DNA of 28,251 bases from a virus. The position numbers were made by a program, and so were the translations under genes. A model generated the notes under the pieces. The model saw only the letters and a list, made by a program, of their open reading frames with translations, was not told where the DNA came from and did no database searches. The DNA lies in the IMG/VR virus record IMGVR_UViG_3300032222_000097, positions 1 through 28,251 of that record. One strand, given 5' to 3'. Every line of letters starts with the position of its first letter. Positions within the stretch are counted from its first letter, which is position 1. Positions 2,083-24,805 of the stretch are shown piece after piece.

Positions 2083-4293
2083 TTATTTATTCTTTAAGCT
2101 TCCTCTGTTTGGTAAATCAATCGTTTTAGTGCTTGCCGTATCCCAACTTGGCGGTGCAAACGGCACACCTTCTCTATTTGCAGTTGCATCAGATACCTTC
2201 TCATAGTTACGCATATCCCTTTTGTCTGAATTTTTCTCACTTGAAGTTAGTGGTTTTATCTTGCCATTTTCAGTTTTGCGTCTGTATGTTACTCTATACC
2301 AAGCGTGATGGCAATAAACACCACCTTTAAACTTCCAAATACTATAATTGCTTGAACCTTCAGGGGCAAATTGACCATTCACTCCGTTAAAACTCATCAT
2401 ATTTATGTCCTCTCTGCGATAAACAATGCCTTTTTTTGAAAGGTTGGTCATTTCTTTGCAGAACTTTCTTGAGTTTTTAGTTACTCTGTCTGGGCCATAC
2501 TTATAGCGTATCTTAAAAATACCAGTATCATCCTTTGATTTCATATCTGGGTTATCCCATCCGAACTCAAAGTGATCATCTTCATCATTTGCCTCTTGGA
2601 TATCTATAACCTCCCACTCGTTTAGGTCAATCTCCTCGCCTTTATCTTGCAAGAAAGCTAACCAAGCATTTTCATCCTCTTCAGTCATCTTTGGTTTAGA
2701 GAATTGAATGCCTATTGATCCCAAAGCTTTAATAACATCGGTGTTATTATCGTAATGCTTCTCAATTCCAAGTTCTTTAATCTTCTCAACTTTAGCCTGG
2801 TTAGAACCAGTCGCATAAACTCTTGACGATGGTATACCTAATTCAGATGCAATGTCAAGCATACCTTCTTTAGAATCTCTTGCACTTATTACAAATACGG
2901 TTGCACCATTCTCAATTTCTTTTTTTGCAAGCTCTTGGCCTCTATCTGTGCTTAATGTATCGTCAAAATCAAAGCTAACCTTATTTTCAGCTGCCATATT
3001 CCACTTGTTTATACAAATAGCGTATGCTTGCTCGTTTGATTTGCCTTCGTTTACTACATATTTAATGCAACGGCCTAAAAAGTCCTCTTTGCTTTCACCA
3101 CTTTTTTTTTCAACCATTTCAACTTTAGAAAAGCCGTATTCCTTTTCCTTGGTTGTGGTATCAATAGCCACTCCGCTTAAATCAACGAACTCTAAAGGTT
3201 GCAAAGTCTTAAAGTATATGTCAACCATTACTTCATTCTTTAAAAGGACCTTATTAAAGGCATCAATTAATAGATTTTGGAATGGTCTGATAACAATATT
3301 GTCAAACAAAATACTTGCAGTTTTTAACTCTTCAGCATTTGAGCTGAATCCATTACCACTATTTTTAACACCGAACAATAAAGGACTTGTAATACGGTGA
3401 GCTAATAAAATTTTGTCAATACATTCTGTACTTAAAAATTGGTATTGATCAGCAGCATCACTTAAAGCAACTGGAGTGATATCAGCCGCAGAATCTTTAC
3501 TCTCGTTAAATGATACGATTGCTCTGCCAGTATTTGAACTTCCTCCGAATTTAGCATTGATTTGAGCTTCGATTGCATCTTTAATTTCCTCACTTGGTTC
3601 GCCATTATTGAAGTTAATCAACATTGATGGAGCTAAACCATTTTTAATATTGTTTAAATGGTAGTTACTTATCTCACCTTCAAGCTCACAGTATTGAGTG
3701 CCACCTTGATAGTCTGGTGGTGCAAAATAAAAGTTACCAGTTGAATATGGCTTAATAACCATCATACATTCTTTTGCGTTGTCATCATAACCAAACGCTG
3801 CGAACTCTTTTGGCTTTTGGCCCTTCTTTAATTTACTCCAATCAGCACAATAGAACCATTTTTCAATTTCGCCTTTATCATTGGCTTTCTGTGGTCTTAA
3901 AGTTTGCATTGGGAAGTGGTAAGCACGAACATACTTTTTACCGTCTTTAGACTTTACAATTTGGAAGGCACACATACCCAACATTGTCAAGTCCATTACG
4001 CACTTTTTAACCTCTTCATTTTGGAAGATGGTTTTAAAATCTAAATAACCCTTTAAATGACGATCAGCTTTAACAACCTCTGGGCCATAGCCGTATATCA
4101 TATCGGCTTTACCTTTGATACAAGCGTTGTTTGTAGGTGAACTATAATACAAATCAATTAAGTATTGATAGTAGTTATTGTCAGCACCGTACTCAACCCA
4201 ATCTTTATTTGTTTGCTCAACAATAGATGGACTTGTATAACCAGCCATATTGATGATGTGGTAACTTGGAATATTTTTTTTGCGTGTAGCCAT
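2083..4293 (-). CDS. Portal protein fused to a HAD-like domain and a C-terminal CHHxW domain
   Basis: At 736 residues this is much longer than a usual siphophage portal (about 400-550). Residues 1-380 look like the portal: a basic N-terminus, mixed alpha/beta clip and wing regions, then a helical crown with LLAHRITSPLLFGVKNSGNG at 296-315. Residues about 398-431 carry a C...C...W motif (GRCIKYVV ... AYAICINKW). Residues about 437-530 form a HAD-superfamily-like domain: FDFDDT with D442 and D444 as motif I, VISAR around 468-472 as motif II, Lys501/503, and HYDNN at 513-517 as motif IV. The remaining 200 residues contain DDTGIFKIRY and a KGGVYCHHAWYR segment (Cys661, His662, His663, Trp665) that could bind metal. 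The portal forms the dodecameric DNA gate of the capsid. The role of the extra domains is unknown. The gene begins 1 base into the stop of its upstream neighbour. Confidence 0.8.
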   Translation of the reverse strand: MATRKKNIPSYHIINMAGYTSPSIVEQTNKDWVEYGADNNYYQYLIDLYYSSPTNNACIKGKADMIYGYGPEVVKADRHLKGYLDFKTIFQNEEVKKCVMDLTMLGMCAFQIVKSKDGKKYVRAYHFPMQTLRPQKANDKGEIEKWFYCADWSKLKKGQKPKEFAAFGYDDNAKECMMVIKPYSTGNFYFAPPDYQGGTQYCELEGEISNYHLNNIKNGLAPSMLINFNNGEPSEEIKDAIEAQINAKFGGSSNTGRAIVSFNESKDSAADITPVALSDAADQYQFLSTECIDKILLAHRITSPLLFGVKNSGNGFSSNAEELKTASILFDNIVIRPFQNLLIDAFNKVLLKNEVMVDIYFKTLQPLEFVDLSGVAIDTTTKEKEYGFSKVEMVEKKSGESKEDFLGRCIKYVVNEGKSNEQAYAICINKWNMAAENKVSFDFDDTLSTDRGQELAKKEIENGATVFVISARDSKEGMLDIASELGIPSSRVYATGSNQAKVEKIKELGIEKHYDNNTDVIKALGSIGIQFSKPKMTEEDENAWLAFLQDKGEEIDLNEWEVIDIQEANDEDDHFEFGWDNPDMKSKDDTGIFKIRYKYGPDRVTKNSRKFCKEMTNLSKKGIVYRREDINMMSFNGVNGQFAPEGSSNYSIWKFKGGVYCHHAWYRVTYRRKTENGKIKPLTSSEKNSDKRDMRNYEKVSDATANREGVPFAPPSWDTASTKTIDLPNRGSLKNK

Positions 4294-18682: not shown

Positions 18683-18938
18683 TCTTACCTATATCCATTC
18701 GTAGCTTGTGTATTTTTTTTAGGTCTTCTTTGCAATCTGTAATATCACCGTACTCAATATGGCAAGGCCTACAAAGTGCCATCAAATTAAATATATTATC
18801 CTTTGATGTTCTTCCGCCCATTCCCCTGGCTTCAATGTGGTGAATGTCAGTTGCTCTGGCCTCACATACTTCGCAGGGTATGAAGTCCGATGTATCATAC
18901 CCAAAATAATCCAGATATATTTTAGTGTGATTTTTCAT
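18678..18938 (-). CDS. HNH endonuclease
   Basis: An 86-residue protein from ATG at 18938, which overlaps the methyltransferase stop by 17 bases; an earlier start at 18977 would lengthen the overlap. The HNH zinc-finger fold is clear: CEVC, then TDIHHIEARGMGGRTSKDN with the catalytic His pair, FNLMALCRPCH with the second Cys pair and final His. Small HNH proteins near terminase genes can assist DNA cleavage at packaging, as in HK97; a free-standing homing nuclease is the alternative. It is the last gene before the promoter at 18651-18682. Confidence 0.88.
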   Translation of the reverse strand: MKNHTKIYLDYFGYDTSDFIPCEVCEARATDIHHIEARGMGGRTSKDNIFNLMALCRPCHIEYGDITDCKEDLKKIHKLRMDIGKI

Positions 18939-20076
18939 AAGGTTTTCCGTTCTTTTTAATCTTAATGCTTGGATCAAGTTTAATCATTCGGTCAATTATT
19001 ACTTGGCAGTACTTAGGGTCTAATTCCATTCCGTAGCATTTACGATTAAGCTGATGCGATGCTACCATTGTTGAGCCTGAGCCAAGAAAAGCATCATAAA
19101 TTTGTTTTTTATCAGGGTTATCTTTCATTGCCATTTCAATTAATGAAATAGGTTTCATAGTTGGATGAACCGTATTTCTTTCTCTTTTAGTTTGCCATAC
19201 ATCTCCTCTAATTGTTTTCTGCCCACCAAATTTTCCATGATATAAAATAATTTCATGTTGTTTAAAATATTTATCTAAGTGTTGAGCTGGATTTACTTTA
19301 TCCCAAACTATAAATGATTTAACTGGCTTTTGTAAATCATCCATTGCTTTCCTAAATAAATGAGAAAATTGCCAAGAACAACAAACATAAAAAGTATCAG
19401 AATTTACATTTAAAGCATCATAAATAAATTTAGTAAAATCATCATCACTCATTTTATCATTTGCTATTTTATCTCTTTTATCTTTTACTCCCTGATAATC
19501 TATATTGTAAGGTGGGTCGGTAAATACCATTTCTATTTTATTGCCATCCATTAATTTTGCAACCTGGTCGCTATCTGTACTATCACCACACAATAACCTA
19601 TGCTCACCTATATCAAATAAGTCTCCAAGTACAATATCTGTTTGAATCTCATCTGATACATCAAAATCATCTTCAACGGCTTCAAGTTCTTCTTGAGTTG
19701 TAAAGTCTGTCGGTAAATCCATACCCCAATCCTCAAGCAAAGGCAAATCCCATTCGTTTGCAATCATATCCCAGTCCCACTCTCCGTAACCAAGGTTGTC
19801 TTTAATTAAAAATTCCTTTTGCTGATCCTCGCTTAACTCATCGGCTATAATAATAGGCACTTCTTTGTATTTCAATTCCTTTAATGCCTTTAGTCTCATA
19901 TTGCCCGCAAGGACAATCATATCTGAATTAACCACAATAGGCCTATACTCAAGCATTTGGGGTAAGTCCTGGATTGATTTTAAAAGCTTTTGATACTTAT
20001 CCTTGTTTAGCTTACGAGGATTGTTTGGGTTCTCTTTGATTTCCTTGATCGGAATAAGTTTGATTTTTGATTTCAT
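18922..20076 (-). CDS. ParB-like nuclease domain fused to a DNA methyltransferase
   Basis: A 384-residue two-domain protein. Residues 1-100 are a ParB/sulfiredoxin-like domain (IKLIPIKEIKENPNNPRKLN, then LAGNMRLKALKEL). Residues about 140-375 are an amino-methyltransferase of the DNA N6-adenine or N4-cytosine type: DPPYNIDY at 187-194 is the catalytic motif IV, and DAFLGSGSTMVASHQLNRKC at 328-347 with ELDP is the AdoMet-binding motif I. Motif IV before motif I marks the beta class. HPTMKPISLIE between them is typical. No partner restriction enzyme is seen, so it is an orphan methylase that could protect phage DNA from host enzymes. The first 65 bases overlap the end of the small upstream gene. 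Confidence 0.93.
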   Translation of the reverse strand: MKSKIKLIPIKEIKENPNNPRKLNKDKYQKLLKSIQDLPQMLEYRPIVVNSDMIVLAGNMRLKALKELKYKEVPIIIADELSEDQQKEFLIKDNLGYGEWDWDMIANEWDLPLLEDWGMDLPTDFTTQEELEAVEDDFDVSDEIQTDIVLGDLFDIGEHRLLCGDSTDSDQVAKLMDGNKIEMVFTDPPYNIDYQGVKDKRDKIANDKMSDDDFTKFIYDALNVNSDTFYVCCSWQFSHLFRKAMDDLQKPVKSFIVWDKVNPAQHLDKYFKQHEIILYHGKFGGQKTIRGDVWQTKRERNTVHPTMKPISLIEMAMKDNPDKKQIYDAFLGSGSTMVASHQLNRKCYGMELDPKYCQVIIDRMIKLDPSIKIKKNGKPYEKSH

Positions 20077-23130: not shown

Positions 23131-23325
23131 TTACGATTTTGTTTCAGGTAGGCAGTCAAACCCCAAACTTTTAATAACTTCAACTTGTAAAACCTTCACT
23201 GGTTCTTTAAAATAGCGTTTTCGGGTAAAATACCCATCGGTGTGCTTGTATACCACATCTTTTACCCACTTTGGCCCTTTGTCTATTTGGACTAATAAAT
23301 TAGCTCTGAATATTTCTGTTGGCAT
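23131..23325 (-). CDS. Unknown 64-aa protein
   Basis: I place the start at ATG 23325 (MPTEIFRANLLVQIDKGP), 25 bases inside the previous gene; the frame is open 11 codons further upstream but that would double the overlap. The 64 residues have an alternating beta pattern (FRANLLVQIDKGPKWVKDVV, YFTRKRYFKEPVKVLQVEVI). Basic and aromatic residues could fit nucleic-acid contact. No family is recognised. Confidence 0.6.
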   Translation of the reverse strand: MPTEIFRANLLVQIDKGPKWVKDVVYKHTDGYFTRKRYFKEPVKVLQVEVIKSLGFDCLPETKS

Positions 23326-23977
23326 AACAAGTTCTATAATGTAAACATACACAAGCAAACATTCTCCAATTAATATTTGGCAATGAAAAATTGTTAATGA
23401 ATGTCATAAATGGGTTGTTTTTAGTTTGGTCTCTTTTGTATTTGTCCTCTAAAGCCAGTTTTAACTCGCTGATCATTATTTCAAGTACAAACTCTGGATA
23501 TTGCATATCATCAAAAGTCCTAATAAACTCATATTTTGAGCTAAAGAACATTGGAAACGAATCAAACTTTTTAGTCTCTTCGTACTCATACCAAACCTTC
23601 CTCATATCTTCATACCCCTGGCGTTCCTCCTCTGGAGTAAGCTTCACAAAGTTTTCAGTCTTTTTAACTTGTGGCTTTTGGATGTCAATTTCGCCAAGCA
23701 AACCGCTATTGATAGCCTTATAAATTACTGTTGCCACAAATTGAGCGTTTAGTCGTTCAGGTTTCTTTACATCAATTATACCCATAATCCATTTGTCCAT
23801 TGAATCCTTGATGACATTGATATTGTATTTGCCATAGTTTTGTTTGATAAATTCAACAATCTCGGCTGGATATTTAGGAATGTCAAGGTCGGCAAGCATA
23901 CAAACATTTTCTAGTATCTTGCCTATTTCTTTATTTTGTGCGTCTTTTATATACATAGTTTTCAAATTTAATCCCAT
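23300..23977 (-). CDS. Possible helicase loader / replication partner, 225 aa
   Basis: A 225-residue mostly helical protein without signal or membrane segment. Features: EIGKILENVCMLADLDIPKY near the start, KDSMDKWIMGIIDVKKPERL and NAQFVATVIYKAINSG in the first third, then TPEEERQGYEDMRKVWYEYE. It directly follows the initiator gene, as P follows O in lambda, and the window has no helicase gene, so the phage probably uses host DnaB and needs a loader. The first third resembles helical regions of Bacteroidota phage proteins beside initiators. The loader role is an inference from position. It overlaps the initiator stop by 10 bases. Confidence 0.5.
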   Translation of the reverse strand: MGLNLKTMYIKDAQNKEIGKILENVCMLADLDIPKYPAEIVEFIKQNYGKYNINVIKDSMDKWIMGIIDVKKPERLNAQFVATVIYKAINSGLLGEIDIQKPQVKKTENFVKLTPEEERQGYEDMRKVWYEYEETKKFDSFPMFFSSKYEFIRTFDDMQYPEFVLEIMISELKLALEDKYKRDQTKNNPFMTFINNFSLPNINWRMFACVCLHYRTCYANRNIQS

Positions 23978-24639
23978 TTAATTGATTTTTCTTCTTTTAA
24001 AGTTACAATAACATCTTCCCACCGTTTTTGATTTATATAAGTTAAAGGATTAGGATGTTTATAATTAGCAAAAGGCTTAAACTCTAAAAATTTCGGAAGC
24101 GTCGCCCGAATTTCCGCCCTTTGTAATTCAGTAAGTTTTTGATATTTTTTAATAACATCTTGTTTTTGATTCTTAATTGGATATAAATTCCAAAAAGATT
24201 CAAAAGAAAAACAAGTATTTATATTATCTTTAGTATTATCTATATTAGTATTATTTAATATAGTATTATTGGGTGTAATTTCTACACTACCCCCCAGTGT
24301 AATATTTACACTACCACCTAGTGTATTTTCTACACTACCCTGGTGCAATTTTTGCACTAGTGGTGTAATTATTGCATACTTGTTGAATATCACATTATTA
24401 ACCTCTATTTGCGTTTTCTTAATAAGCTTCTTGTCAACCAAATCGTGCAATATTTTAATCGCAGTTTTTCGTGTACAGTTTAACCAATTAGCTAAATAAT
24501 TGATGCTACCAGTATATTCAGACTGGCCATCTTTAGTAAATCCATAAATTAAAGCATAAGCCATTAATTCATTCCCATTTAAATTAAGGTCGTTAATCAT
24601 CCAACCTTGGACAACAATATAGTCTTTATTGTTTGGCAT
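23968..24639 (-). CDS. Replication initiator-like winged-helix protein carrying the origin in its gene
   Basis: A 223-residue protein. Residues 10-95 form a winged helix: LNLNGNELMAYALIYGFTKD, then YTGSINYLANWLNCTRKTAI with the recognition helix, then KILHDLVDKKLIKK. Residues 98-123 repeat GSVENT, GGSVNIT, GGSVEIT, the reflection of DNA iterons in the gene, followed by an Asn-rich linker (NNTILNNTNIDNTKDN). The C-terminal 80 residues carry FESFWNLYPIKNQKQDVIKK and TYINQKRWED, a motif seen at C-termini of phage and plasmid replication proteins. The layout equals lambda O: N-terminal DNA-binding domain, origin in the linker, C-terminal partner-binding domain. The start overlaps the small upstream gene by 14 bases. 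Confidence 0.8.
   Translation of the reverse strand: MPNNKDYIVVQGWMINDLNLNGNELMAYALIYGFTKDGQSEYTGSINYLANWLNCTRKTAIKILHDLVDKKLIKKTQIEVNNVIFNKYAIITPLVQKLHQGSVENTLGGSVNITLGGSVEITPNNTILNNTNIDNTKDNINTCFSFESFWNLYPIKNQKQDVIKKYQKLTELQRAEIRATLPKFLEFKPFANYKHPNPLTYINQKRWEDVIVTLKEEKSIKWD
24231..24269. repeat. AT-rich 15-bp direct repeats (candidate DNA unwinding element)
   Basis: TAGTATTAT occurs three times at 24231, 24246 and 24261, exactly 15 bases apart, in a stretch almost devoid of G and C. It borders the iterons directly. This pairs with them as expected for an origin opening site. In protein it codes an Asn/Thr-rich linker. Confidence 0.75.
24273..24380. repeat. Five iterons, candidate replication origin
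   Basis: Five 18-base units begin at 24273, 24297, 24321, 24343 and 24363 (spacing 24, 24, 22 and 20). The first three read GTGTAnnnnnTACACTAC; the fourth is GTGCAATTTTTGCACTAG, in which both arms changed together; the fifth is GTGTAATTATTGCATACT and is less exact. Each has dyad symmetry, as expected for a dimeric winged-helix initiator. They lie inside the initiator gene, next to the AT-rich repeats, as in the lambda origin. Confidence 0.82.
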
Positions 24640-24805
24640 AATTAGTAATGAATAAAAGTTCTTTGATAAGTTCAGTTGTTTCGTCTTTACCTAAATTGAC
24701 CTCAATAATGTGTCGGTTTAGTTTAACTGTGATTTTTACAAATTCACCATTTTTCTCTGTTGTAATAGATGCTTCGTTATCATCTATAAATTGTTTGTTG
24801 ATCAT
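24626..24805 (-). CDS. Small protein after the structured leader, 59 aa
   Basis: ATG at 24805 (MINKQFIDDNEAS) directly follows the T-tract of the leader RNA; a start six codons earlier would lie inside the terminator stem. The 59-residue protein has a beta-then-helix pattern (NGEFVKITVKLNRHIIEVNL, then ETTELIKELLFITNYAKQ). Its stop overlaps the initiator start by 14 bases, so control of this gene also controls the initiator. No family is recognised. Confidence 0.65.
   Translation of the reverse strand: MINKQFIDDNEASITTEKNGEFVKITVKLNRHIIEVNLGKDETTELIKELLFITNYAKQ

Follow-up and report, generated by a model that had tools for sequence, protein, structure and literature searches.

Why would a phage keep an array of inverted repeats in the middle of a protein-coding gene? 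The 28,251-base stretch of viral DNA analysed here, which we call the window, carries on its minus strand a gene of 223 amino acids (23968..24639) whose product, by Pfam and PHROG matches, consists of an N-terminal HTH_36/DnaD_N domain, a linker and a C-terminal domain. The initial annotation noticed five repeats in the linker DNA and took them, with the AT-rich stretch beside them, for a lambda-like replication origin inside the gene for its own initiator. To our knowledge, few phage origins have been mapped outside lambda-type models, and those of Bacteroidota phages hardly at all. A Bacteroidota host is plausible for the window phage, since the closest named relatives are phages of Flavobacterium, Tenacibaculum and Bacteroides; most homologues in named phages are annotated as hypothetical.

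What does the array consist of? Read on the plus strand, iterons 1 (24273-24287, GTGTAATTTCTACAC), 2 (24297-24311, GTGTAATATTTACAC) and 3 (24321-24335, GTGTATTTTCTACAC) are perfect dyads of the form GTGTA-n5-TACAC, a pattern that the window contains in these three copies only. Iteron 4 (24343-24357, GTGCAATTTTTGCAC) reads GTGCA-n5-TGCAC, both arms having changed together with the symmetry retained, as had been pointed out. The five positions and their spacings of 24, 24, 22 and 20 bases are also as first described. Symmetry had been ascribed to all five repeats and is exact in four; iteron 5 (24363-24377, GTGTAATTATTGCAT), the farthest from the AT-rich stretch, pairs GTGTA with TGCAT and is imperfect, with two mismatches. 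A repeat length of 18 bases is on the generous side, the core being 15 bp and somewhat longer with flanks. The distal iterons look weaker, and the same has been described in lambdoid origins (PMC7466680). Iteron 1 adjoins the AT-rich stretch (24219..24270), the proposed duplex-unwinding element, where TAGTATTAT begins at 24231, 24246 and 24261, the exact 15-base steps originally seen and its only three occurrences in the window. This stretch had been called AT-only; it is AT-rich instead, with one C at 24240. On the coding strand the order is thus winged-helix domain, iterons 5 to 1, AT-rich stretch and C-terminal domain. Cumulative GC skew, proposed as a check, falls steadily through the site with no sign change and gives no support for an origin; the fall reflects the shared orientation of nearly all window genes, which makes this measure uninformative here.

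Is such an array a property of the family, and does it exist at the level of the DNA? Scans of viral contigs, genomes, phages and plasmids, one viral scan matching 267 relatives, yielded 182 distinct genes with the N-terminal domain, 177 of them analysable. The 300 bases following the recognition helix were searched, blind to the protein, for the most recurrent 5-bp arm with a 5-bp gap, and compared to a control in which codons for the same amino acid traded places, leaving protein and codon usage unchanged. Dyads exceeded this control at p<0.05 in 123 of the 177 genes, where about 9 are expected; for the window gene itself, none of 200 shuffles matched the real dyad count (p = 0.005, the floor). 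In 108 of the 123 genes the iterons are read in two or three frames; with the excess over codon permutation, this means that selection acts on the DNA. Mean iteron spacing in the 123 genes is 22.5 bases (sd 1.4; commonest 22, 24 and 23), close to two helical turns. Genes with the protein but without the repeats, named at the outset as evidence that would speak against an origin, are rare among the relatives. Of the 54 genes that did not pass the strict dyad test, most still have repeats at about 20-24 bases, often degenerate or mixed.

The stretch that follows the array is similarly constrained. On the coding strand, about 48 bases have a GC content of 14-23%, compared to about 33% elsewhere, and in 94 of the 123 genes this stretch falls in the lowest 5% of its own gene. 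Third-codon-position GC is 10% versus 35% elsewhere, so the bias is not solely driven by amino acids. The stretch opens with a fixed CCAATAATA on the coding strand, both in the window (24219-24270) and at the same place in 76 relatives. Repeats of 12 and 15 bases within it far exceed codon-order shuffles (z = 24 and 12.5, respectively), the TAGTATTAT of the window being one case of the 15-base kind. Because both periods are multiples of three, slippage under coding constraint may be their source. The AT-rich stretch with its repeats would serve strand opening, or possibly single-strand binding.

What kind of protein does the gene encode? The Pfam scan places HTH_36 (PF13730) at residues 18-73 (1.4e-7, 31.6 bits against a cut-off of 25) and DnaD_N at residues 17-100 (2.4e-7, above the curated cut-off), and a PHROG replication initiation protein profile covers nearly the whole protein (2.2e-18). 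In the same scan the initiator matched neither RepA_N (PF06970, E up to 1) nor Phage_rep_O (PF04492), nor the C-terminal family of DnaD, so that one of the two DnaD domains was found. AlphaFold2 models the winged-helix domain (residues 1-87, 24379..24639, minus strand) with a mean pLDDT of 89, helices at residues 12-16, 22-35, 46-53 and 57-69, and a two-strand wing; the last helix (24433..24471, minus strand) is the recognition helix. Its top PDB folds by Foldseek are 4pt7, 4pql and 5kbj (E 4.8e-4 to 9.1e-4; TM-score by query length 0.61-0.65), whose titles speak of a replication initiator, of a DNA-binding protein's N-terminal domain and of a Rep-DNA complex, and which we take to be RepA_N-type initiators. 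General winged-helix regulators and DnaD rank next, and the closest viral fold models include replisome organizers and a phage protein whose annotation reads lambda GpO N-terminal. By sequence search, no solved structure was found for the window initiator, and the family profile drew weak matches to transcription regulators alone from PDB sequences. The C-terminal domain (24004..24216, minus strand), the proposed recruiter of helicase or loader, shares 52% identity with the C-terminal part of a protein from Tenacibaculum phage JQ.

If the N-terminal domain reads the repeats, do its recognition helix and the repeats change together across relatives, as the initial annotation suggested one should ask? 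They do. The arm word varies among genes and tracks one residue, the second past the S/T with which the recognition helix begins; in the window this is K58 (codon 24466-24468, minus strand). Proline at this position goes with GTAAA, lysine with GTGTA, asparagine with GTGCA, arginine with GTGAA and threonine with GTACA; among the 123 genes, arm bases 3-4 are AA in 54 of 55 genes with P58, GA in 15 of 17 with R58, GT in all 6 with K58, GC in 4 of 5 with N58 and AC in all 3 with T58. Q58 is ambiguous, with AA or CA. The arm of iteron 4 in the window, GTGCA, is the word typical of N58 relatives, and the relative L002 has a mixed one. The AMI of residue 58 with the arm word is 0.52-0.58, first of 88 columns at every redundancy cut, while the next column reaches 0.23-0.32 and the best of 100 label shuffles 0.21. 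When arm bases 3-4 were predicted from relatives below 55-60% identity, a limit set with the recognition helix masked, 84% of the predictions were correct, compared to 34-48% for the nearest allowed relative and 60% for the majority class.

Shared ancestry was addressed with a tree built without the recognition helix, in which 35 branches carry a change of residue 58 and 38 a change of bases 3-4. The two coincide on 19 branches versus 8.1 expected, the largest of 5000 draws being 17, and residue 58 is the column with the largest excess of changes coinciding with those of bases 3-4. With the whole arm word as the label, the excess is smaller (16 versus 10.4 expected, with draws reaching 18), indicating that the coupling is to bases 3-4. 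In CAP, the equivalent residue, E181, sets specificity in TGTGA, and a residue 58 that reads bases 3-4 fits this precedent. Co-variation and codon tests together point to binding sites lying in the same gene as the HTH_36 domain that would read them, and the N-terminal domain almost certainly binds the repeats in its own gene. Residue 61 (24457-24459 in the window) shows a separate pattern among Q58-G59 relatives, in which Q61 occurs with TGCAA or TACAA arms, while genes with I, L or M at this place have TTAAA or GTAAA, marking a second specificity position. Among papers accessible without subscription, our literature search found none on a code between recognition helix and iterons or on the origin of this phage family.

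Four plasmids with initiator homologues were held out from these analyses. For the E. eligens plasmid homologue (SRPT), which lay outside the training set, GTAAA was predicted and found three times (p=0.010). The T. succinifaciens homologue carries three perfect GTCCA dyads followed by CCCAATAATATAG; GTGTC had been predicted, wrongly, from very few cases. A search for gap-5 dyads in the Fusobacterium homologue found none. The fourth, from Treponema saccharophilum plasmid pTS1 (L344, 1489-2793), has two tandem winged-helix domains with different recognition helices, DRKT and DRTT, and its linker holds five direct GTTGCAAAATTCCCC repeats, four of them 22-23 bases apart, which are non-palindromic, unlike those of the single-domain homologues. 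Non-palindromic repeats are what a covalent dimer with two readers would require, and this one example is possibly such a natural dimer.

What surrounds the initiator gene? The next gene (23300..23977, minus strand) encodes 225 amino acids with no match in Pfam, NCBIfam or named phages; the relatives found for it are all near-identical, with 98-100% identity in seven related contigs. In many relatives, a helicase or loader gene occupies this place. In its three largest clusters, BLAST clustering, with one member scanned per cluster, assigns 44 of these next genes to P-loop ATPases resembling IstB/DnaC (by Pfam on L058), 9 to DnaB, including that of L002, and 7 to G39P-type loaders. Plasmid homologues adjoin ParA/ParB, ZapE or DnaB, and in Tenacibaculum phage JQ the protein with the window-type C-terminal domain directly precedes the helicase gene. 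Elsewhere in the window, 18922-20076 encodes a ParB-like domain fused to a DNA methyltransferase (phrog_498 at 2.9e-104, along with ParB-like PHROGs).

How stable is the pairing of reader and sites within a population? Seven contigs (L336-L342) share about 88-94% of their flanking DNA with the window and have other N-terminal halves. Around positions 2180-3000 of these contigs, at least four different N-terminal initiator modules precede one C-terminal domain and one neighbour gene, the C-terminal domain being kept in all seven, closely in five and more diverged in L341 and L342. L337, on the same contig as L001, has a domain of the same type with GTGCA/GTTCA words; L336 has a different winged helix and four TGAAAAAATTGCA repeats at 22-23 base spacing; L338-L340 have another N-terminal type with 15-base AT repeats; and L341 and L342 have an unrelated N-terminal domain. 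By blastn against L336 and L338-L342, the exchangeable cassette spans approximately 24232..24803 on the minus strand and takes in the N-terminal domain, the iterons and most of a small upstream ORF. One breakpoint falls in this ORF, and the other varies between about 24287 and 24232, from the iterons to the end of the AT-rich stretch. No dyads of the window type were found in the swapped linkers of L338-L342, so these other initiator types must use other sites. In L338, 2641-2690 holds possible direct repeats around TACGG/GACGG, followed by four 15-base AT repeats, which suggests that the L338-L340 module is another iteron type without dyads. The initiator and its sites thus appear, from these alignments, to travel as one swappable unit.

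How would such a locus work? Dimers of the N-terminal winged-helix domain would occupy the five dyad iterons, which are spaced by about two helical turns; the sequence evidence supports this step strongly. By analogy with lambda, and given the conserved layout, the bound complex would then open the AT-rich repeats beside the array, on its C-terminal side. The C-terminal domain, encoded across the origin, would recruit the helicase or its loader, as the gene order of relatives and of phage JQ suggests. Recombination at the domain border, as seen in the near-identical contigs, would swap reader and sites together, since both lie in one stretch of DNA, and leave the C-terminal domain in place. 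From its anatomy, its neighbours and its precedents, we consider it highly likely that the window site is the replication origin of the phage, located inside its own initiator gene.

Binding by itself fits an operator as well as an origin. The repeats could instead be operators through which the protein represses or tunes its own operon, with replication starting elsewhere, and the winged-helix domain does resemble transcription regulators in the PDB by sequence. The array, however, lies mid-gene as opposed to at a promoter, and several phased iterons followed by an AT-rich stretch with its own repeats are the anatomy of an origin. Furthermore, the C-terminal part matches replication initiation PHROGs, relatives adjoin helicase, loader or ParAB genes, and pPR9, which has the same Pfam domain, replicates autonomously (PMC5703833). 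Regulation in place of initiation is unlikely on these grounds. Might the dyads be a by-product of a linker peptide (GSVNITLG) that arose by slippage and was retained for the protein? Two of the window spacings are 24 bases, or 8 codons, and a peptide repeat is visible. Yet one DNA word is translated in different frames, giving VQKLHQ and GSVENTLG in the window and VVKKLY and GSKETLQ in relatives, with two or three frames used in most of the dyad-bearing genes; moreover, synonymous-codon permutation abolishes the dyad signal and the arm word follows the recognition helix. An array kept for its peptide is extremely improbable. Chance, or coding as such, was ruled out as a source of the dyads by codon permutation and the use of multiple frames.

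In plasmids, iteron arrays can serve as titration or pairing sites. The window array could likewise be a site for copy-number or incompatibility control, or for packaging or partition, that the initiator binds while opening takes place elsewhere. Against this stand the fixed AT-rich stretch, which follows the array family-wide and is the expected opening site, and the homologues in plaque-isolated phages (Flavobacterium FCV-1, Bacteroides B40-8), which have less need of copy control. Such a role is very unlikely.

What follows if this is so? We lean toward a broader picture of a large initiator family, in phages and plasmids alike, whose members have the origin within their own gene and read it by a mostly one-residue code, and of near-identical phages that exchange the cassette as a unit. 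Origins and their specificity would then be readable from sequence alone, in over a hundred genes already. A swap would change origin specificity and keep the helicase-recruiting half, perhaps allowing escape from incompatibility or from parasites that hijack origins, and such exchange would be a reason to keep the origin inside the gene at a domain border. The gene set, in which each gene holds a DNA-binding domain together with its matching sites, also amounts to a natural library with which one can test directly how initiator specificity evolves. Judging by the literature searched, the recognition code and the population-level exchange are new here; the plan of the origin is already known.

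How close is this plan to that of lambda? Our computation on lambda gene O finds four dyad-symmetric iterons, at spacings of 20, 24 and 23, in the middle of the initiator gene. There, too, the AT-rich tract lies 3' of the iterons on the coding strand and inside the initiator gene, and initiator dimers bind the iterons and AT-rich single strand (PMC7466680). The window has the same elements, with iterons about 20-24 bp apart in the initiator gene and an AT-rich tract on the C-terminal side, and the initial comparison to the lambda plan, with both placed in the interdomain part of the gene, is borne out. The differences are in the parts. Lambda O matches PF04492 only, whereas the window initiator matches HTH_36/DnaD_N; the iteron sequences are unrelated, and the window has five iterons with a degenerate outer one; in lambda a helicase-loading gene comes next, whereas the next gene of the window has no match to P. 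The annotation had proposed that the plan was reached with unrelated sequence. A direct profile comparison of the window family to lambda O, with a single lambda sequence as template, indeed found no similarity, but the window initiator and lambda O both match phrog_678. This shared match, and the likeness of the predicted fold to the phage protein carrying the lambda GpO N-terminal annotation, make a distant common ancestor possible. The locus would work like the lambda origin, yet its initiator is not classed in the lambda O family.

Plasmids offer a second comparison. In RepA_N plasmids such as pSK41, a winged-helix N-terminal domain binds Rep boxes central in the rep gene, and the origin encodes the linker to a distinct C-terminal domain (PMC5703833). 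The predicted winged-helix fold of the window initiator is likewise closest by Foldseek to 4pt7, 4pql and 5kbj; the Pfam family and the host-interacting C-terminal domain differ, and the replicon is a phage as opposed to a plasmid. In pPR9, about 500 bp of pSK41 encoding the N-terminal domain and origin are replaced by an HTH domain (pfam13730) with its own origin, and the mini-replicon is functional (PMC5703833). pPR9 shares with the window the N-terminal Pfam domain (PF13730) and the exchange of domain and origin region as a unit with the C-terminal domain retained, as found among the near-identical contigs, and differs in taking its C-terminal domain from pSK41. By domain family and exchangeability, RepA_N plasmids and pPR9 are therefore closer precedents for this locus than lambda, while its plan is that of lambda.
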